Assembly: GCF_003254465.1 (NCBI RefSeq)
Contig: NZ_QDFI01000023.1
Span: 1 to 54,139, forward strand
Direction: 5' to 3'
Length of the DNA: 54,139 nucleotides
Source: Meridianimarinicoccus zhengii
GTDB lineage: Bacteria > Pseudomonadota > Alphaproteobacteria > Rhodobacterales > Rhodobacteraceae
Position numbers and translations under genes: made by a program. The notes below the pieces were generated by a model that saw nothing but the letters and a program-made list of their open reading frames with translations, was not told where the DNA came from and did not search any database. Shown one piece after another: positions 27,111 to 35,536 of this stretch (position 1 is the first letter of the stretch; each line of letters starts with the position of its first letter).

Positions 27111-27154
27111 GAGTCATACGAGAGTCATACAAGAGTCATACGCGAATCCTACAC
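27111..27154. repeat. Four 11-bp tandem repeats between convergent genes
   Basis: GAGTCATACGA, GAGTCATACAA and GAGTCATACGC are followed by a diverged GAATCCTACAC with no spacing. They fill the gap between the dsbA-like stop and the Gfo/Idh stop, and the last copy overlaps that stop codon. An 11-bp period is one helical turn, as in phased binding sites or short replication-slippage repeats. Confidence 0.75.
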
Positions 27155-28273
27155 CGCGCCGACCGCCGCTTTCTCCGGTTGCGCCGCCGCAAGCGTCGGC
27201 AGATCCAACCGCACCACGCGCCCCTCGGCCGCCGATTGCTGCGCCGCCAGACCCATCAGGACCGCACGCATCCCGTCTTCCAGCCCGACCTCCGGTTCGG
27301 CCACGCCGCGCACCACGTCGAGAAATCGCTGGTGCTGGAAATAGGTCGACCCGTTGTGATCGCCCGCCTCCAGAAGCGTCTCGGGTACCGGAATATCCCG
27401 TGTTTCCGGGCCTTTGGGGTGGCGCGGGCTCAGGATCAGCTTGGGCGTCGGCGCCGGTCCAAGCGCTTCGGGCCAGAACCGCCCCGGCCCCGGCACCAGC
27501 GCCTGGATCTTGCCAAGCCCGCCCACGGCGGTGATCTCTTCCTGGTATTCCGCGCCTTCCGCGAACATGCACAGATCGAGCATCGCCCGCGCCCCGCGCG
27601 CGAATTCCACGATCACATAGCCATGGTCCCACACATCCGCCTCACCGATGTGATTGACCGCCTGCCCCCCGCTCGCCATCACCGCAACCGGTTCATCTTG
27701 CAGGATGAATCGCATCAGGTCGAAGAAATGGCAGCACTTCTCGACCATCGTCCCGCCGCTCCGCGCTTCCCGCCGGTTCCAGCCCCCGACCTTGTCGAGA
27801 AACGGAAACCGATGCTCCCGCAACGTCAGCATCCGCACCCCCCCGGTCACCGTCGCGGCCTCCTGCACCAGCGCCGCGACCGGCGGCATGTAGCGGTATT
27901 CCATCGCCACCCACACGGGCACCGTGTAGGTCGCGCGGAAAGCCTCCAGCCGCGCCACGTCGGACGGGCTTGTAAACAGGGGCTTTTCCACGAGGATCGG
28001 CAGGTGCCGACCCGCCGCGATCCGCTCCAGCTGGTCCATGTGGCAATCGTTCGGCGACGCGATCAGCAGCGCGTCCAGCGTCTCGTCGGCCAGAAGTGCG
28101 TCGATATCCGGGTACACGACCGCATCGGGCACCAGCGCCGCCGCCTGCGCGCGCATGCCCGCGTCGGGTTCGAAGATCGCCGCGACGCGCGCACCGTCCA
28201 ACAGCGCGATATTGCGGATGTGTTCCTGCCCCATCATGCCCGCGCCGATGATGCCGTAGTTCTGTATCGTCAT
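27149..28273 (-). CDS. Gfo/Idh/MocA-family NAD(P)-dependent oxidoreductase
   Basis: The 374-residue enzyme has an N-terminal Rossmann fold (GIIGAGMMGQEH) and the family's EKP motif (VEKPLFTSP), whose Lys takes part in hydride transfer on sugars, inositols or related polyols. The C-terminal half is the usual Gfo/Idh beta-sheet domain with WNRREARSGGTMVEKCCHFF. The start at 28273 (MTIQNYGIIG) was chosen because the frame upstream runs through the GntR gene. It is encoded 22 nt behind the GntR regulator, so they form a unit divergent from the monooxygenase operon and probably share its substrate pathway. Confidence 0.92.
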   Translation of the reverse strand: MTIQNYGIIGAGMMGQEHIRNIALLDGARVAAIFEPDAGMRAQAAALVPDAVVYPDIDALLADETLDALLIASPNDCHMDQLERIAAGRHLPILVEKPLFTSPSDVARLEAFRATYTVPVWVAMEYRYMPPVAALVQEAATVTGGVRMLTLREHRFPFLDKVGGWNRREARSGGTMVEKCCHFFDLMRFILQDEPVAVMASGGQAVNHIGEADVWDHGYVIVEFARGARAMLDLCMFAEGAEYQEEITAVGGLGKIQALVPGPGRFWPEALGPAPTPKLILSPRHPKGPETRDIPVPETLLEAGDHNGSTYFQHQRFLDVVRGVAEPEVGLEDGMRAVLMGLAAQQSAAEGRVVRLDLPTLAAAQPEKAAVGAV

Positions 28274-28295
28274 GTTCCGACTGTCTTTCCTGTGG

Positions 28296-29012
28296 TCAGC
28301 GCCGCGCCACATACCGCGCGCGCGCCGGGTTGAACCATGTGAACGAGATTTCGGGGCAGTCGCCCTCGGGCGTCGTGCTGCGCCGTTCCACGTAGCCGCA
28401 GGGCGCACCCGCGGCACAGCCCATGGCATCGCCCCATACCGGGACGGCATCGAGGCCGATTCGATCTTCCACCGCCGCGATCCACAGACCGAGCCGCTCG
28501 CGGTAGAAAAGGTACAGCGATTCCGACAGGTCGTCCGGCGACAGCCGCGCTGCGCGCGCCCCGTCCAGCCAGATTTCCTCCACCGCGACGACGACGTCGT
28601 CGAGCAGACGCAAGCGCCGGATGCGATGACCCTGCCGATCCAGGCCGAAGGGCGGGAGGTCGGCAGGCTTGTCCAGCCGGTCCACCGACAGCACACGCGC
28701 GCGCGGAAGCCCCCCGCCATCCATGCGTTCGAGCCGGAAGAACGAATAGACACCGATGTCTTTCCCGGCGTCCTTGATGTAGTTCCCCGACCCTTGCAGC
28801 CGCGCGATCACGCCGTCCTGCTGCAATTGCGCCAGCGTCTTGCGCAAGGTGCCCACGGCCACGCCAAGGTCCTGTGCCAGCGTCCGTTCGGGCGGCAGGC
28901 GGTCACCGACGCGCAGCCGCCCCGCCGCGATCTCACGCAGCAGCACCTCGCGCAGCTGCAGGTATTTCGGCAGCGCGGTGCGGTCTGCAACGGCGGTGGG
29001 CGGGGCGGCCAT
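28296..29012 (-). CDS. GntR-family (HutC/UTRA) transcriptional regulator
   Basis: This 238-residue regulator has an N-terminal winged helix (YLQLREVLLREIAAGRLRVG, LPPERTLAQDLGV, TLRKTLAQLQQDG) and a C-terminal UTRA ligand-binding domain (about 95-238). UTRA regulators sense a pathway sugar or metabolite. Start 29012 with a GGAG ribosome site is preferred; the frame upstream continues into the divergent promoter. It is transcribed away from the monooxygenase/TRAP operon with 82 nt between the starts, so it is the likely local regulator of both units. Confidence 0.9.
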   Translation of the reverse strand: MAAPPTAVADRTALPKYLQLREVLLREIAAGRLRVGDRLPPERTLAQDLGVAVGTLRKTLAQLQQDGVIARLQGSGNYIKDAGKDIGVYSFFRLERMDGGGLPRARVLSVDRLDKPADLPPFGLDRQGHRIRRLRLLDDVVVAVEEIWLDGARAARLSPDDLSESLYLFYRERLGLWIAAVEDRIGLDAVPVWGDAMGCAAGAPCGYVERRSTTPEGDCPEISFTWFNPARARYVARR

Positions 29013-29094
29013 AATTGTCTCCGGCGCGAATTGATTTATGATTGATGCACCATTCGAGAGGTGATAGGCAAGCAAAAAACAAGGAGACCCAACC
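29013..29094. promoter_or_regulatory. Divergent gntR / monooxygenase promoter region
   Basis: This 82-nt AT-richer gap must hold both promoters and the GntR operator. A direct repeat ATTGAT occurs at 29030 and 29041 (one turn apart). CACC/GGTG arms flank a possible operator at 29048-29063. A TTGATG element at 29042-29047 with a weak -10 after 17 nt is a possible forward promoter. Confidence 0.5.
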
Positions 29095-30249
29095 ATGACC
29101 ATCGTGCCCATCACCTCGCCCGATCTCGACGCGGTCGAGGTGTCGTGGTTCTCGGCGCTTTGCTCCGACGACTATCGGTTTCTGGGCGTGCCCGATGGCG
29201 ACCTGCGGTCTAGCTTCGCGCATTGCTCGGCCATCGTGCGCGAGGCCGAATCGCAGGGGTTCCGCAACATCCTGTGCCCGTCGTCGTTCCAGGTCGGACA
29301 GGACGTGCTGACCTTCGTGGCCGGCTGCGCGCCGCTGACAGAGCGGATCAATTTCCTCGCCGCCGTGCGCTGCGGCGAACTGCACCCACTGATGCTGGGC
29401 CGCACCATCGCCACGCTCGACCACATGCTGGAGGGACGGCTGACGGTGAACATCATCTCCAGCGACTTCCCCGGCGAGACGGCCGACAGCGCCTTTCGCT
29501 ACCAACGCTCGCGCGAGGTCGTGGAGATTCTCAAGCAGGGCTGGATACGGGACCGGATCGATTATCACGGCGAGGTCTACGACTTCACCGACATGCCGAC
29601 GGACCCGGTACGCCCCTACCAGACCGGCGGGCCGCTGCTGTATTTCGGCGGCTACTCGCCCGCGGCGCTCGACCTGTGCGGACAGCATTGCGACGTGTAC
29701 CTGATGTGGCCCGAACCCAAGGAACAGATCGCCGAACGCATGAAGGCCGCTGCGCAAGCCGCGGAAAACTATGACCGCACGCTCGATTTCGGCCTGCGCG
29801 TGCATGTCATTGTGCGCGACACAGAGACCGAGGCACGCGAATATGCCGAGCATCTCGTGAGCCAGCTTGACGACGAATACGGCAAGCTTATCCGCGACCG
29901 GGCGCACGATTCCATCTCGCTCGGCGTGTCGCACCAGTCCCGTGCACGGGAGTTGGCGGATCAGTTCGGCTATATCGAACCCCACTTGTGGACCGGGATC
30001 GGGCGTGCCCGGTCGGGCTGCGGTGCCGCCCTTGTCGGGTCCACCGATCAGGTCATGTCCGAACTGGAGGCCTATCGCAAGATGGGCATCCGCGCCTTCA
30101 TCCTGTCCGGATACCCCCACCAGGACGAATGCCGCGCCTTCGGGTCGCGCGTCCTGCCCCAGATGAAGACCTGTTCGCTGCCCGAAGCCTATGGGCGCGT
30201 GCCCGCAACCACACCGCCCACGCCGCTGGGCACCGGAGACCGTCACTGA
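29095..30249 (+). CDS. SsuD-like FMNH2-dependent (alkane)sulfonate monooxygenase, LLM class
   Basis: The 384-residue enzyme is a bacterial-luciferase-fold, flavin-dependent monooxygenase, close to SsuD along its whole length. SsuD active-site residues are visible: Arg and His in FGLRVHVIVRD, Arg in GIGRARSGCGAALVG, and Tyr in ILSGYPHQDE. The position of SsuD Cys54 is not Cys here. Such enzymes cleave a C-S bond of a sulfonate to give an aldehyde and sulfite, using reduced flavin from a partner reductase. It starts a coupled operon (TGATG into the aldo/keto reductase) that also encodes a flavin reductase and a TRAP importer. The exact sulfonate is unknown. Confidence 0.88.
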   Translation: MTIVPITSPDLDAVEVSWFSALCSDDYRFLGVPDGDLRSSFAHCSAIVREAESQGFRNILCPSSFQVGQDVLTFVAGCAPLTERINFLAAVRCGELHPLMLGRTIATLDHMLEGRLTVNIISSDFPGETADSAFRYQRSREVVEILKQGWIRDRIDYHGEVYDFTDMPTDPVRPYQTGGPLLYFGGYSPAALDLCGQHCDVYLMWPEPKEQIAERMKAAAQAAENYDRTLDFGLRVHVIVRDTETEAREYAEHLVSQLDDEYGKLIRDRAHDSISLGVSHQSRARELADQFGYIEPHLWTGIGRARSGCGAALVGSTDQVMSELEAYRKMGIRAFILSGYPHQDECRAFGSRVLPQMKTCSLPEAYGRVPATTPPTPLGTGDRH

Positions 30250-31142
30250 TGCAACGTGCCATTCTTGCCCCTGATTTCTCGCTCTCGCGCATCGTCTACG
30301 GAATGTGGCGGCTGGGCGATGACGACGACACCGGCCCCGCCCACGTGCAGGCCAAGATCGAGGCGTGTCTAGACCAGGGCATAACGACCTTCGACCAGGC
30401 CGACATCTACGGCGGCTACACGGCCGAGGCGATCTTCGGCGGCGCCCTCCGCGCGGCCCCCCATCTGCGGGAGCGGATGGAGATCGTCACGAAATGCGGG
30501 ATTGTCGCACCTGCGGGCCGCCACGAAGACGCGCGGGTGAAACACTACGACACGTCCGCCGCGCATATCACGGCATCGGTGGATCAGTCGCTGGCAGATA
30601 TGGCCATCGAACGGATCGACCTGCTGCTGATCCACCGCCCCGATCCGCTGATGAACCATGCGGAAACCGGCGGGGCGCTGGATGCGCTGGTGGCGTCGGG
30701 CAAGGTGCGTCATGTGGGCGTGTCCAACTTCAAGCCCCATGACTGGACGCTGCTGCAATCGGCCATGCGCACGCCGCTGGTGACCAACCAGATCGAGATC
30801 AGCCTGCTGCACACCGACCCCTTCACGAACGGCGACATCGCGTTCCTTCAGGAACGCGGCGTGGTACCGATGGCGTGGTCCCCGCTGGGCGGCGGCGCGC
30901 TTTTCAAGAAAAAAAACAAGCGGCTGGCGAAGATACTGGACGATATCGGCGAGCGTTTCGACGTCGACGCCGCCGCGGTCGCGGTGGCGTGGCTGATGCA
31001 TCACCCGGCATGGATCGCGCCGGTCATGGGCACCAACAGCCTGTCGCGGATTGCGACGCTGGGGGATGCGTGCAAGGTGCAACTGGACCGGGAGGACTGG
31101 TTCGCGCTCTATACCGAGGCCAACGGGGAGGAAGTTCCCTGA
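30249..31142 (+). CDS. Aldo/keto reductase
   Basis: The 297-residue NADPH-dependent oxidoreductase has the AKR catalytic set in order: Asp and Tyr in FDQADIYGGYTAE, Lys in IVTKCGI and His in LLLIHRPDP. The C-terminal cofactor motif is near PVMGTNSLSRI. It resembles the YdhF-like branch. The start codon overlaps the monooxygenase stop (TGATG) and the stop overlaps the flavin-reductase start, so the three enzymes are made together. A likely job is reduction of the aldehyde released by the monooxygenase, as SmoB does in the sulfo-SMO pathway. Confidence 0.9.
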   Translation: MQRAILAPDFSLSRIVYGMWRLGDDDDTGPAHVQAKIEACLDQGITTFDQADIYGGYTAEAIFGGALRAAPHLRERMEIVTKCGIVAPAGRHEDARVKHYDTSAAHITASVDQSLADMAIERIDLLLIHRPDPLMNHAETGGALDALVASGKVRHVGVSNFKPHDWTLLQSAMRTPLVTNQIEISLLHTDPFTNGDIAFLQERGVVPMAWSPLGGGALFKKKNKRLAKILDDIGERFDVDAAAVAVAWLMHHPAWIAPVMGTNSLSRIATLGDACKVQLDREDWFALYTEANGEEVP

Positions 31143-31660
31143 TGGACGGGACAAAGGATGTCGACATGACCCAATTCCTGCCGGGCCCGGGCATGGAGCG
31201 CCCGTATCGCGACGCGCTCGGCACCTTCGCGACCGGCGTCACCATCGTCACGGCAGCGGCCCCAGACGGCCCTGTCGCGATCACAGTGAACAGTTTCGCA
31301 TCCGTGTCGCTGTCGCCTGCGCTGGTGCTGTGGTCCATCGATCTCGGGTCGGACCGTTGCCCGCTTTTCCGTAACGCCACCCACAGCGCGATCCACGTGC
31401 TTGGTCGCGAACAGGCGCTCCTGGCACGGCATTTCGCCAAGAACGGTCGGGATTTCAACGGGCAGGACTGGTCGCTGTCGGACATGGGCGTGCCGCTTCT
31501 GGCGGGGTGCCCGGCGCGGCTGGAATGTGAACTGGTGGCGGATCATCCCGGGGGGGACCACCGTATTCTGGTGAATCAGGTGCTGCGGGTGACGCGGGCG
31601 CCAGGTGAGCCGCTTCTGTTCGCCGGCGGGGCTTTCGGGCAGGTCGCGCCGCTGGTCTGA
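31142..31660 (+). CDS. Flavin reductase (FMN-binding split barrel)
   Basis: The 172-residue protein is a flavin-reductase-like split-barrel enzyme (YRDALGTFATGVTIVTA, ITVNSFASVSLSPALVLWSI, and HRILVNQVLRV). It would supply FMNH2 to the SsuD-like monooxygenase encoded two genes upstream. The ATG at 31142 overlaps the reductase stop and has GGAGGAAG upstream, so it is preferred over the ATG at 31166. Length and motif order fit the family. Confidence 0.9.
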   Translation: MDGTKDVDMTQFLPGPGMERPYRDALGTFATGVTIVTAAAPDGPVAITVNSFASVSLSPALVLWSIDLGSDRCPLFRNATHSAIHVLGREQALLARHFAKNGRDFNGQDWSLSDMGVPLLAGCPARLECELVADHPGGDHRILVNQVLRVTRAPGEPLLFAGGAFGQVAPLV

Positions 31661-31745
31661 CCCGGCGCGGAAGGTGCGACACCCGCGGCAAACGCGGGGA
31701 CGAGGCGGCCGACATCAGGCCGATACAAAGGGAGGGGACTGCGCC

Positions 31746-32402
31746 ATGGCGATCTTGCTGGGGCTGATTGCGCCGTTGCAAGCGTTGAACACAACGCTTG
31801 GGCGGCTGGGACATTGGGCGACGGTGATCGCCATGGCGCTCATGGTCACGGTGATCGTGTTGCAGGTGGTGTTCCGGTACGTTCTAAACAACGCGTTGCC
31901 ATGGCCGGACGAGGCCGCGCGCTTCTTCATGCTATGGATGACCGGCCTGATCGCACCGGTCGCCTATCGCAGGGGCGGGTTCGTGGCGATCGACATGCTG
32001 GTGCGCGCCCTTCCCGCCCGGATCGGCGCGGCACTGGCCTTTGTGCTGCTGCTCGTGGCCATGCTCGTGCTGATCAAGGGTATCCAGCTCGGCCACGCAC
32101 ACACCATGTCGGGCTGCCTGTTCCGGTCTGGATCTCTGTGGCTACCGTTCTCCGTGCAGTTCGCGCTGCCCGTGCCCGGGTCCGGCATGTCGCTGACGCT
32201 CTGCACAGCTGCGGATTTCGCGCTTGGCGTGACATGGGGCTGGGCCAAACTGCCGCTTGCGACGATGTATGCCTCGCTATTCCTGGGGTTCGTGCTTCTG
32301 ACGCTCGTGAATCTCGAACTCATCCTCCGCGCGCTTGTGTCCATGCTGGGCGGCGCGCAGGATCTCAAGCCCATTCCGGGCGGTGTCGTGGGAGCCGAAT
32401 GA
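31746..32402 (+). CDS. TRAP transporter small permease subunit (DctQ family)
   Basis: The 218-residue protein has four membrane helices and the DctQ pattern (TVIVLQVVFRYVLNN, PWPDEAARFFMLWM, RRGGFVAIDML). It lies 85 nt after the flavin reductase and 1 nt before dctM, so it is part of the same transcription unit. The upstream frame from 31605 is not used because the ribosome site GGAGGGG sits just ahead of 31746. It is a little longer than usual because of an insert around helices 3 and 4. Confidence 0.9.
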   Translation: MAILLGLIAPLQALNTTLGRLGHWATVIAMALMVTVIVLQVVFRYVLNNALPWPDEAARFFMLWMTGLIAPVAYRRGGFVAIDMLVRALPARIGAALAFVLLLVAMLVLIKGIQLGHAHTMSGCLFRSGSLWLPFSVQFALPVPGSGMSLTLCTAADFALGVTWGWAKLPLATMYASLFLGFVLLTLVNLELILRALVSMLGGAQDLKPIPGGVVGAE

Positions 32403-32403
32403 C

Positions 32404-33693
32404 ATGCTGATCTGGTTTCTTCCCGCCTTTCTCGTGCTGCTGATGATCGGATTGCCGGTCTTCTTCGCCATGCTCGCCGCACCCGGCATCATGCTCTGGC
32501 TCAACGGACAGGAACGCGATCTGTCCCTGCTTTACCGCAATGTGTATAACGGGATGGACAGTTTCCCGCTCATGGCGATCCCGTTCTTCATGCTGGCGGG
32601 CGAATTGATGAACCGCGGCGGCATCACCATGCGGCTGGTGGAGTTCAGTCAGGCCATGATCGGGCATCTGCGCGGCGGGCTTGCCCATGTGAACGTGATG
32701 TCGTCGATGCTGTTCGCGGGGCTGTCCGGTTCGGCCGTCGCCGATACCTCGGCGCTCGGGTCCATGCTGATCCCGGCGATGGAGAAGCAGGGCTACACCC
32801 GCCGCTTCGCTGCCGCGATCACCGCCGCCAGTTCCGTCATCGGCCCGATCATCCCGCCCTCGGGCATCATGATCATCTATGCCTATGTCATGGGGGAATC
32901 CGTTGCGGCCCTGTTCCTTGCCGGGATCGTGCCGGGCATTCTCGTCGGTCTCGGCCTGATGTTGATGATCAAGGTCATGGCCGACCGCTACGACTTTCCC
33001 ATCGCATCGCAGCGCACAACGTGGGGCGAGGCCGGACAGGCCAGCCTGAAGGCGTTCTTTCCGCTGATGACGCCGGTCATCATCCTCGGCGGCATCCTCG
33101 CGGGCGTGTTCACCCCGACCGAGGCGGCGGCGGTCGCGGTGGCCTATGCGCTCGTGATCGGGCTGTTCGTTCTGCGCACCCTGAAGCCCGGCGACATTCC
33201 CGAGGTGCTGGCCAATGCAGGCATGACCTCGGCAGTGGTGCTGCTGCTCGTGGGGGCCGCGATGGCGTTCAAGACCGTCGTGTCGCTGGCACATGCGCCT
33301 GAAACGCTGGCGGCGATCATCCTCGGGCTGTCCGAGAACCCGCTGATCCTGCTGTTCCTCATCAACCTGCTGCTGTTCGTGGTCGGCATGTTCCTCGACG
33401 CGGGGCCGGCGATCATCATCCTCGGGCCGATCCTCGGGCCGATCTTCACCGATCTCGGGGTGGACGGCGTGCATTTCGCCATCATCATGTCGGTGAACCT
33501 GACCGTGGGGCTGGCGACACCGCCGATGGGGCTGGTGCTGTTCGTGGCGTCCAGCGTATCGGGCGAACGGGTGGAATCCATCGCCCGCGCCATCCTGCCC
33601 TTTCTCGCCGTGGAAATCGCCGTGATCTTCCTGATCACCTTCGTGCCCGCGATTTCCCTGACCGTGCCCCGCCTTGCGGGTTTCCTGAACTGA
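32404..33693 (+). CDS. TRAP transporter large permease subunit (DctM family)
   Basis: This 429-residue, 12-helix protein is the ion-coupled channel of the TRAP importer. DctM signatures are visible: MAIPFFMLAGELMNRGG, SGSAVADTSALGSMLIPAM, GPIIPPSGIMIIYAYVMGE and ATPPMGLVLFV. It starts 1 nt after the dctQ stop. It works with the DctQ and DctP neighbours to import an organic anion, which fits sulfonate uptake for the upstream monooxygenase. Confidence 0.94.
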   Translation: MLIWFLPAFLVLLMIGLPVFFAMLAAPGIMLWLNGQERDLSLLYRNVYNGMDSFPLMAIPFFMLAGELMNRGGITMRLVEFSQAMIGHLRGGLAHVNVMSSMLFAGLSGSAVADTSALGSMLIPAMEKQGYTRRFAAAITAASSVIGPIIPPSGIMIIYAYVMGESVAALFLAGIVPGILVGLGLMLMIKVMADRYDFPIASQRTTWGEAGQASLKAFFPLMTPVIILGGILAGVFTPTEAAAVAVAYALVIGLFVLRTLKPGDIPEVLANAGMTSAVVLLLVGAAMAFKTVVSLAHAPETLAAIILGLSENPLILLFLINLLLFVVGMFLDAGPAIIILGPILGPIFTDLGVDGVHFAIIMSVNLTVGLATPPMGLVLFVASSVSGERVESIARAILPFLAVEIAVIFLITFVPAISLTVPRLAGFLN

Positions 33694-33715
33694 AGAGCAA
33701 CCGGGAGGACCAAAC

Positions 33716-34771
33716 ATGCTCAGACAACTCACCACACCGCTTCTGGCCGCGGCACTGGCCGCTGCCCCGCTGACGGCGCTGGCGCAGGAATACACCCTGC
33801 GCGCCACCGCGAATTCGAACACCGATGACGAGGATTACGACGGACTCGTCGTCTTCAAGAACTATGTCGAGGCGGCATCGAACGGCGCCATCGAGGTGGA
33901 ACTCTATATCGGCACGCAGCTGTGCGGAAACGGCGCCGAATGCCTTCAGGGCGTGGCCGACGGGTCCATCGACATCTTCATCTCCACCTCCGGCGGGGCA
34001 GCGGGGATCTTTCCCTATGTCCAGGTGCTCGACCTGCCGTACCTGATGACTGGCGACCGGATCGCGGAAACCGTCCTGCAGGGCGATTTCGTGCGAACCA
34101 TGCGCGACATGGCGCTGGAGGATTCCGGTGGGCTGATCCGGCTGATGACCATCGGCAATACCGGCGGCTGGCGCAACTTCGCCAACACCGAGCGCCGGGT
34201 GCAGACCCCCGCTGACCTCGAGGGGTTGAAGATCCGGACCGTGGTCGCCGACCTGCCGCAGGAACTGACCCGCGCGCTGGGGGCGTCGCCCACACCGATC
34301 CCATGGCCCGAACTGTTCACCTCGCTTCAGACGGGCGTCGTGGAAGGCACCAAGAACGGCATCACCGACATCATGGGCATGAAATTCCCCGAGGCCGGAC
34401 TGCAGTACATAACGCTCGACGGGCACGCGTACATGGGCGCGCTGTGGTGGATGAACAACGACCGGTTCCTGTCGATGCCCGAGGATTTGCGCCGCGTGGT
34501 GATGGACGGGTTCTACCAGTTGCAGCAGGCGACCTTCGCCAGCCCCAAGCGCAAGTCGATCCCGGCCTATGAAGCCTTCGTGGAAGGCGGTGGCGACATC
34601 TACGTGCCCACGCCCGAAGAAAAGGACGCGTTCCGCGAGGCGGCGGCACCGGTCTATGACTGGTTCCAGACCAACGTTCCGCGCGGCCCCGAGATCTACA
34701 CGGCGCTCCGCGATGCGGTGGCAGATGCTGAAGCGGAGCTGAATGCGGCCAACGCGCGTGACCTGAACTGA
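33716..34771 (+). CDS. TRAP transporter periplasmic substrate-binding protein (DctP family)
   Basis: The 351-residue receptor has a signal peptide (MLRQLTTPLLAAALAAAPL, cleavage near ALA-QE) and the DctP fold: a CGNGAECLQGVADGSIDI segment, the binding-helix region LEGLKIRTV with the Arg that usually clamps a carboxylate, and PWPELFTSLQTGVVEG. It starts 22 nt after dctM with a GGGAGG ribosome site. It sets the specificity of the importer; the ligand is unknown but is probably the substrate of the linked SsuD-like pathway. Confidence 0.93.
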   Translation: MLRQLTTPLLAAALAAAPLTALAQEYTLRATANSNTDDEDYDGLVVFKNYVEAASNGAIEVELYIGTQLCGNGAECLQGVADGSIDIFISTSGGAAGIFPYVQVLDLPYLMTGDRIAETVLQGDFVRTMRDMALEDSGGLIRLMTIGNTGGWRNFANTERRVQTPADLEGLKIRTVVADLPQELTRALGASPTPIPWPELFTSLQTGVVEGTKNGITDIMGMKFPEAGLQYITLDGHAYMGALWWMNNDRFLSMPEDLRRVVMDGFYQLQQATFASPKRKSIPAYEAFVEGGGDIYVPTPEEKDAFREAAAPVYDWFQTNVPRGPEIYTALRDAVADAEAELNAANARDLN

Positions 34772-34854: not shown

Positions 34855-34921
34855 GCCTTAAGGCAACCTTCACGGCAGCCCTCCGGACTGCCATATGACT
34901 GCCAACACGGAGGGTTGTCCC

Positions 34922-35536
34922 ATGAAACGTCTTGCCATCACGATCGCATTTGTCGCCACCATGACGCTGGCCGGTGCCGCGGGCGCCGCGACGATCGTTT
35001 CGAACGAAATCGATGCGCCGGGCGGCGACTATTCCAACAGCCACGCGAACCCCACGGCATTCGCGCAGGACGTGGCGCTTGTCACAGGCGCGCAGAACCG
35101 CAAGCCGGATGTCGACTGGCTTCTGTTCGACGGCTTCGCGCCGGGCACGGAGCGGCTGGAATTCACCTTCACGAATCCCGGCGGCGGCTGGGGAGGGCTG
35201 AACCTGCGGCTCAAGGAAGAAGCGTTCAAGAACGTCAATGACTGGTGGCCGCTGCTCGACAGTTGGTCGATCAGCAACGTGACCGACGCGCGGTCCGTGA
35301 CGGTGTCGTATGTCCTGAACGGATATACCGGCCCGATCTACGCGGCACTGGATTTCTACAAGGACAACGATTTCGGAAACGGCAACGGGCTCCAGTACAG
35401 CGTCGCACGCATCGGCGGGGTCTATCAGCCCGAAACGGGCGCCGCGCCGGCCGCTGTGCCGCTGCCTGCGGCGGGTGTGCTTGGGCTTGCCGGGCTGGCC
35501 GCATTGGCGGCGCTGCGGGCCCGCCGCCGGGCCTGA
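34922..35536 (+). CDS. VPLPA-CTERM sorting-domain protein
   Basis: The 204-residue exported protein has a signal peptide (MKRLAITIAFVATMTLAGAA) and a C-terminal sorting tail: VPLPAAG, a hydrophobic helix (VLGLAGLAALAAL) and a basic end (RARRRA). That is the VPLPA version of PEP-CTERM seen in Rhodobacterales, where a membrane enzyme trims and sorts the protein to the cell surface or matrix. The mature part (about 24-180) is a Gly/Asn/Asp-rich beta-like domain of unknown function. Start 34922 has GGAGGG seven bases upstream. It is followed by a terminator and probably forms its own unit. Confidence 0.88.
   Translation: MKRLAITIAFVATMTLAGAAGAATIVSNEIDAPGGDYSNSHANPTAFAQDVALVTGAQNRKPDVDWLLFDGFAPGTERLEFTFTNPGGGWGGLNLRLKEEAFKNVNDWWPLLDSWSISNVTDARSVTVSYVLNGYTGPIYAALDFYKDNDFGNGNGLQYSVARIGGVYQPETGAAPAAVPLPAAGVLGLAGLAALAALRARRRA

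Follow-up and report, generated by a model that had tools for sequence, protein, structure and literature searches.

What does the eight-gene cluster at positions 27149-34771 of a Meridianimarinicoccus zhengii contig take up and degrade? The window, the whole stretch of DNA analysed here, comprises bases 1-54139 of contig C137 in a 4.6 Mb draft genome. A preliminary description had read the cluster as a sulfoquinovose monooxygenase (sulfo-SMO) type of pathway for a sulfonated sugar, fed by a tripartite ATP-independent periplasmic (TRAP) transporter. Pfam and NCBIfam profiles recovered all eight genes with the coordinates and families given there (luciferase-like monooxygenase (LLM), aldo/keto reductase, flavin reductase, TRAP transporter, GntR/UTRA regulator and Gfo/Idh protein). 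That part of the description stood, while its claim of a missing sulfoquinovosidase, and the new substrate derived from it, did not. Sulfoquinovose (SQ) is the sulfur-containing sugar found in the membranes of plants and algae. We assign a probability of roughly 0.86 to the reading that this is a Roseobacter-type sulfo-SMO cluster for SQ glycosides, in which the TRAP transporter would import sulfoquinovosyl glycerol (SQ-glycerol) or SQ under GntR control. The reading draws on gene content, homology, active-site residues, repeat conservation and genetic linkage, from which we infer the enzyme activities, TRAP ligand, operator function and regulator ligand.

The monooxygenase gene, smoC (29095-30249, plus strand, 384 aa, PF00296), encodes a probable FMNH2-dependent sulfoquinovose monooxygenase. 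A comparison with PDB sequences gave 7olf (698 bits) and 7oh2 (693 bits) as the best matches, with 293 of 384 residues (76.3%) identical to each; we take these entries to be the Rhizobium and Agrobacterium SmoC structures, respectively. They were followed by 7jv3 (190 bits) and the SsuD entries 1nqk and 1m41 (180 bits), and the rest scored at most 90 bits. The preliminary description had named a grouping with non-sulfonate LLM enzymes as the outcome that would speak against it; the best such matches were a dimethylsulfone monooxygenase (90 bits) and a putative luciferase-like protein (87 bits), compared with 698 bits for 7olf. When the genome was searched with SmoC, the only match at E <= 0.001 was SmoC itself. 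The Arg, His, Arg and Tyr of the SsuD active site, reported earlier as visible, are present as R235, H237, R306 and Y340, presumably important positions in SsuD. With each species represented by a single genome, 166 SmoC relatives were found, of which the best 80 were retained, and the four residues were identical in all 80.

The start of smoB (30249-31142, plus strand, 297 aa, PF00248) overlaps the stop of smoC, and the start of smoA (31142-31660, plus strand, 172 aa, PF01613) overlaps the stop of smoB. SmoB is an aldo/keto reductase predicted to convert 6-dehydroglucose to glucose, and it shares 199 of 292 residues (68.2%) with 7bby, which we take to be a SmoB structure. SmoA is a flavin reductase, the likely FMNH2 supplier. 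In the available part of PMC13372026, sulfo-SMO is recognized by co-localized SmoB and SmoC, with only enzymes named; the adjacent, overlapping smoB and smoC genes fit this definition, and because it names only enzymes, an ABC (ATP-binding cassette) importer was not taken as a defining part of the pathway.

The divergent Gfo/Idh gene (27149-28273, minus strand, 374 aa) supplied the sulfoquinovosidase that had been thought absent. A phmmer search of PDB sequences matched its product to 8zn9 (1.3e-144), 8qc2 (3.9e-108) and 8qc3 (1.1e-105). The last two are FlSqgA of Flavobacterium and ArSqgA of Arthrobacter, the founding NAD+-dependent sulfoquinovosidases of family GH188 (Kaur et al. 2023, PMC10755693, which we cite throughout from the part of its text available); the window protein is nearer to 8zn9 ('oxidoreductase, putative') than to either. 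An alignment with ArSqgA indicated that the equivalents of K107, Y136, R166, L170, K172, E189, H193 and H321 are kept; positions were matched by eye, with the chain numbers shifted by 13 from those in the paper. K107, Y136, E189, H193 and H321 contact SQ or act in catalysis, and R166, L170 and K172 bind the sulfonate (PMC10755693). Glu163 of the same paper is an exception to this shift: the corresponding chain residue is Val, with Glu in the following position, and the window protein has that Glu. Among the 76 aligned relatives from SMO loci, the cited sites were identical in every protein covered (74 to 76 per site); the sulfonate-binding R166, L170 and K172 were identical in 75 of 75. By eye, the protein has an N-terminal Rossmann motif and no signal peptide. 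By sequence, it is a GH188 sulfoquinovosidase (sqgA-like), expected to cut SQ from glycerol inside the cell. GH188 genes were found in 76 of the 80 SMO loci, and three of the remaining four loci are cut by a contig end; GH188 is described as near-universal in the sulfo-SMO clusters of Roseobacter bacteria (PMC10755693). A GH31 sulfoquinovosidase elsewhere in the genome was considered and rejected: the sole GH31 match is closer to an alpha-glucosidase (229 bits) than to YihQ (100 bits). This GH31 gene (L083, contig C1) adjoins other TRAP genes and a uronate isomerase-like gene, as judged by eye, and probably belongs to a separate uronide or glucoside locus.

SQ and its glycosides are the most likely substrate, because SmoC is 76% identical to the presumed SmoC structures, its match to SsuD is far weaker and a GH188 enzyme is present. 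With this enzyme in the cluster, the main reason to propose a new substrate disappears.

Downstream of smoA, on the same strand, lie dctQ (31746-32402, small permease, PF04290), dctM (32404-33693, large permease, PF06808 and TIGR00786 above cut-off) and dctP (33716-34771, solute receptor, PF03480), whereas gntR and the Gfo/Idh gene are divergent. DctP, DctQ and DctM each scored above the Pfam cut-off, and this complete TRAP set is the sole transporter of the cluster; no ABC importer is found among the eight genes. DctP, a probable receptor for SQ or SQ-glycerol, begins with a Sec-type signal peptide (by eye), and its R174, which we take to be the ligand-arginine position of TRAP receptors, is identical in 64 of 64 relatives. 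Its AlphaFold model (mean pLDDT 72.8, with residues 151-158, 174-179 and 194-236 below 50) was too weak for pocket analysis. Because GH188 uses NAD+ and carries no apparent signal peptide, the glycoside should enter the cell intact; SQ-glycerol is therefore favoured as the TRAP substrate, and SQ is also likely. A variant of this reading, in which the TRAP transporter takes free SQ only and the glycosides cut by GH188 enter otherwise, is possible but doubtful. For DctP, ligand size and specificity are predictions, which leaves room for it; against it, an NAD+-using enzyme lacking a signal peptide should act inside, and the cluster has no other transporter.

The link between this transporter and SmoC was surveyed in 390 genomes of the order (Rhodobacterales), with limits of E <= 1e-80 for SmoC and E <= 1e-90 for DctP. 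SmoC was found in 194 genomes and the DctP family in 155; both were found in 132, and DctP was found without SmoC in 23. The DctP family is sharply bounded, since even the weakest of the 155 best matches had an E value of 8.2e-149. In all 97 genomes for which both places were among the matches listed, DctP followed SmoC downstream on the same strand, at a distance of 3336 to 3955 bases. Among the best 80 of the 166 SmoC relatives, 42 had all eight genes with order and strands unchanged, so that the eight-gene arrangement is conserved far beyond chance. The nearest rows to the window in the SmoC and DctP trees were Meridianimarinicoccus roseus and Fluviibacterium aquatile.

To see what accompanies DctP where SmoC is lacking, 20 of the 23 genomes were taken (L089-L108); the protein families were defined on a single locus, L091, and followed through the others by tblastn (E <= 1e-25). 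In 18 of the 20 loci we found an SQ-isomerase-like protein, a PfkB kinase, a tagatose-bisphosphate-type aldolase and a GH188 protein, the last 46-51% identical to that of the window and with the cited sites identical in 18 of 18. An aldose 1-epimerase was present in 12 of the 20 loci and an aldehyde dehydrogenase in 10. The variant Embden-Meyerhof-Parnas pathway called sulfo-EMP2 includes the isomerase SqvD, the aldolase SqiA and the probable mutarotase SqvB (PMC9594981, available part), and the core of the 18 loci resembles it. The isomerase, kinase and aldolase of these EMP-type loci were found in none of the 80 SMO loci and not in the window. In a tree of 70 DctP proteins, the EMP-linked ones did not form one clade: the EMP label required five changes when set against every other row and four when only SMO rows were the contrast, with at least three forced by well-supported branches (bootstrap not fully settled, 0.988 versus 0.99). 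This scatter suggests that the transporter and the sulfoquinovosidase stayed paired through several replacements of the core, and keeping the same TRAP transporter through such switches argues for SQ or its glycoside as its cargo. As a separate observation, DctP has a roughly 600-aa neighbour carrying a di-haem CCP_MauG domain in 18 of the 20 loci without SmoC, namely L108 and 17 of the 18 EMP-type loci. A relative is present in 19 of the 80 SMO loci (for example L007, L064 and L079) and none in the window; as a guess, it might handle periplasmic sulfite or peroxide.

Several observations weigh against the proposed reading. The depositors titled 7olf and 7oh2 methanesulfonate sulfonatase and alkanesulfonate monooxygenase, and deposited 7bby as an aryl-alcohol dehydrogenase; the names SmoC and SmoB for these entries are our attribution. 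Even the best-matching solved receptor (2e-31) is a distant relative of DctP. The full TRAP set was found downstream in 44 of the 80 SMO loci and in part, at a contig end, in one; the other 35 had no such TRAP genes nearby, four of them with less than 5 kb of contig remaining. Similarly, 62 of the 194 SmoC genomes of the order lacked this DctP, and from these two counts the transporter is not required for the pathway. The TRAP label needed 13 changes on a quickly built SmoC tree, compared with a shuffled mean of 26.7; it is therefore clustered on the tree, yet was often gained or lost. For the isomerase of the EMP-type loci, the best NCBIfam model was sulfoquinovose isomerase SftI, at 260 bits against a cut-off of 700. 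Finally, in two of the 20 DctP-only loci, L102 and L108, neither an SQ core nor GH188 was found.

The absence of the transporter from those 35 SMO loci, together with the two SmoC-less DctP loci showing no SQ genes, would suit an explanation in which the enzymes act on SQ and the TRAP transporter imports another compound, being a neighbour for other reasons. We consider this improbable: the linkage with SmoC held in all 97 cases measured among the matches listed, the transporter is independently linked to a second SQ-type core with GH188 in 18 of 20 loci, and at least three supported switches were counted on the DctP tree.

That SmoC and GH188 relatives have been re-tuned for another sulfonated sugar or sugar acid, such as sulfofucose or a 6-sulfo sugar acid, is very improbable. 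DctP has no close solved relative, and a Paracoccus is known to catabolize sulfofucose according to the sources available in part, both of which fit such a change. However, the enzymes are 76% and 68% identical over their full length to the solved SmoC- and SmoB-type proteins, the cited SQ- and sulfonate-contacting residues of GH188 are retained, and the same transporter also accompanies a pathway of the SQ-isomerase type. The sulfofucose pathway, as far as the available text describes it, is Entner-Doudoroff-like and has ABC transporters, unlike the window cluster. An SsuD-type scavenging of alkanesulfonates for sulfur in starvation is scarcely credible, since SmoC is homologous to SsuD but its 229.5 bits with the NCBIfam SsuD model TIGR03565 are far under the cut-off of 518.2, which largely refutes the idea, 7olf and 7oh2 score 698 and 693 bits versus 180 for 1m41 and 1nqk, plasmid records annotated as ssuD are about 35% identical, and an aldo/keto reductase and a sulfoquinovosidase would be senseless for alkanesulfonates.

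We then analysed the region between gntR and smoC. The regulator gene (28296-29012, minus strand) encodes 238 aa from an ATG at 29012, picked by eye with GGAGA upstream, and its product matched Pfam GntR and UTRA above cut-off. The sequence ATTGATTTATGATTGATGCAC, at 29030-29050, consists of two direct repeats with 11-base spacing. With up to two mismatches allowed, the window held no other match to the element and 100 shuffled sequences gave none; with up to one allowed, the whole genome again gave this single site, and the reversed control gave none. Of 85 loci, three were too short upstream; in 81 of the 82 usable ones the repeat core lay within 200 bases upstream of smoC at up to one mismatch, 72 of them exact, and it was not found upstream of smoC in L020. 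Across the 81 loci whose sequences were retrieved (1.56 Mb together, both strands) there were 91 matches to the core, 80 of which were the smoC-upstream sites. The core also occurred once in each of four of the 20 DctP-only loci. Because the loci are related, part of this conservation reflects descent. The second repeat overlaps the -35 box (29042-29047) of a probable promoter, followed after a 17-base spacer by a -10 box at 29065-29070; in 71 of the 81 loci, TACGCA, TAGGCA or TATGCA stands 17 bases beyond the -35-like box. The tandem direct repeat ATTGATNYANNATTGATNYAC (plus strand) is a probable operator over this putative smoC promoter. Its position suggests that the GntR/UTRA protein binds it, probably as an SQ-responsive repressor.

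These data suggest the following mechanism. DctP would bind SQ-glycerol, and probably free SQ too, in the periplasm, and DctQM would import the bound ligand using an ion gradient. Cytoplasmic GH188 would free SQ through transient C3 oxidation with NAD+. SmoA would provide FMNH2, with which SmoC would split the C-S bond to yield sulfite and 6-dehydroglucose, and SmoB would turn the latter into glucose. The GntR/UTRA protein would bind the tandem ATTGAT repeats at the smoC -35 box and so repress the divergent promoters, with release by an SQ-derived ligand. On balance, we lean towards the broader view that DctPQM founds a TRAP family for SQ and its glycerol glycoside, forming with GH188 a constant module to which, in Rhodobacterales, one or the other of two unrelated cores, sulfo-SMO or sulfo-EMP2-like, was joined several times, the SMO version being under GntR/UTRA control at a fixed tandem operator. 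It would then be, to our knowledge, the first TRAP system to carry a sulfosugar, or a glycoside in intact form.

The cluster has several known relatives. The sulfo-SMO (sulfo-ASMO) systems, SmoABC of Agrobacterium tumefaciens and SquDF of Novosphingobium aromaticivorans, have the same families of monooxygenase, 6-dehydroglucose reductase and flavin reductase. The Agrobacterium pathway uses a GH31 sulfoquinovosidase, whereas the window has a GH188 enzyme and a GntR/UTRA regulator; its importer, in the sources available in part, is of the ABC type, compared with TRAP here. The receptors for isethionate (8t9t, 4.7e-29) and sialic acid (SiaP, 3.5e-27) belong to the same DctP family and are only distant from the window protein; they presumably share its arginine position, and the window substrate is presumably a sulfosugar or its glycoside. 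A core resembling that of sulfo-EMP2, with an isomerase, kinase and aldolase that the window lacks, stands beside GH188 and the same transporter in 18 of the 20 SmoC-less DctP loci. The Roseobacter-clade sulfo-SMO clusters with GH188 have the same enzymes, and the window is a member of this group (PMC10755693); apart from figures and supplements, the available main text of that paper does not mention TRAP. No TRAP transporter is assigned to SQ in the parts of the searched literature available; Liu et al. 2023 (ISME J) or the Agrobacterium PNAS paper may already mention one. A 2025 paper, in the part available, names ABC transporters for the SQ and sulfofucose pathways.

The SMO loci vary beyond this arrangement. 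An ABC importer as the rule in TRAP-less loci was not supported by ten proteins from the 35 such loci: in L030 the ABC genes sit with an alpha-amylase gene, and in L022 a mannonate dehydratase gene stands beside a convergent ABC gene. A sodium:solute symporter occupies the TRAP position in L047 (11320-13023, after SmoC; neither SmoB nor SmoA was found in this locus) and in L072 (12631-13491, after SmoA), and is perhaps another importer type. The recorded actinomycete Enemella evansiae (L053, 8142-12070) has a SmoC 79% identical to that of the window and relatives of GH188, GntR and SmoA, with no SmoB found in the locus; this cluster may reflect a recent transfer or assembly contamination. SmoC also matched 94 plasmid records, five of which were examined. 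The annotated plasmid records of Ruegeria sp. TM1040, Roseivivax sp. THAF197b, Paracoccus seriniphilus and Rhizobium sp. SL42 carry these eight genes in identical order; a Novosphingobium pentaromativorans plasmid has a monooxygenase 49% identical, with an alpha-glucosidase and a LacI regulator instead. Downstream of the cluster, Ruegeria sp. TM1040 (L084, 16079-17104) and Rhizobium sp. SL42 (L085, 13926-14885) have a gene of the putative sulfate exporter family, which may export sulfite or sulfate; the genome of the window has one match to PF03601, on a different contig. Beside the cluster, positions 34895-35536 encode a 213-aa protein that, by eye, seems to have a signal peptide and ends in VPLPAAG...RARRRA, which we take to resemble a PEP-CTERM-type sorting signal.

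The sulfo-SMO pathway, GH188 and their union in Roseobacter bacteria are already known, and for the window itself the pathway is ordinary within its clade. What would be new is the probable specificity of the TRAP transporter for SQ. About ten billion tons of SQ are produced yearly (PMC10755693). Roseobacter bacteria are reported marine SQ users, and the uptake route is not stated in the available parts of the literature searched. A TRAP family that occurs in 155 of the 390 genomes surveyed in the order and is linked to two SQ-type pathways would offer a marker gene as well as a receptor open to direct testing.

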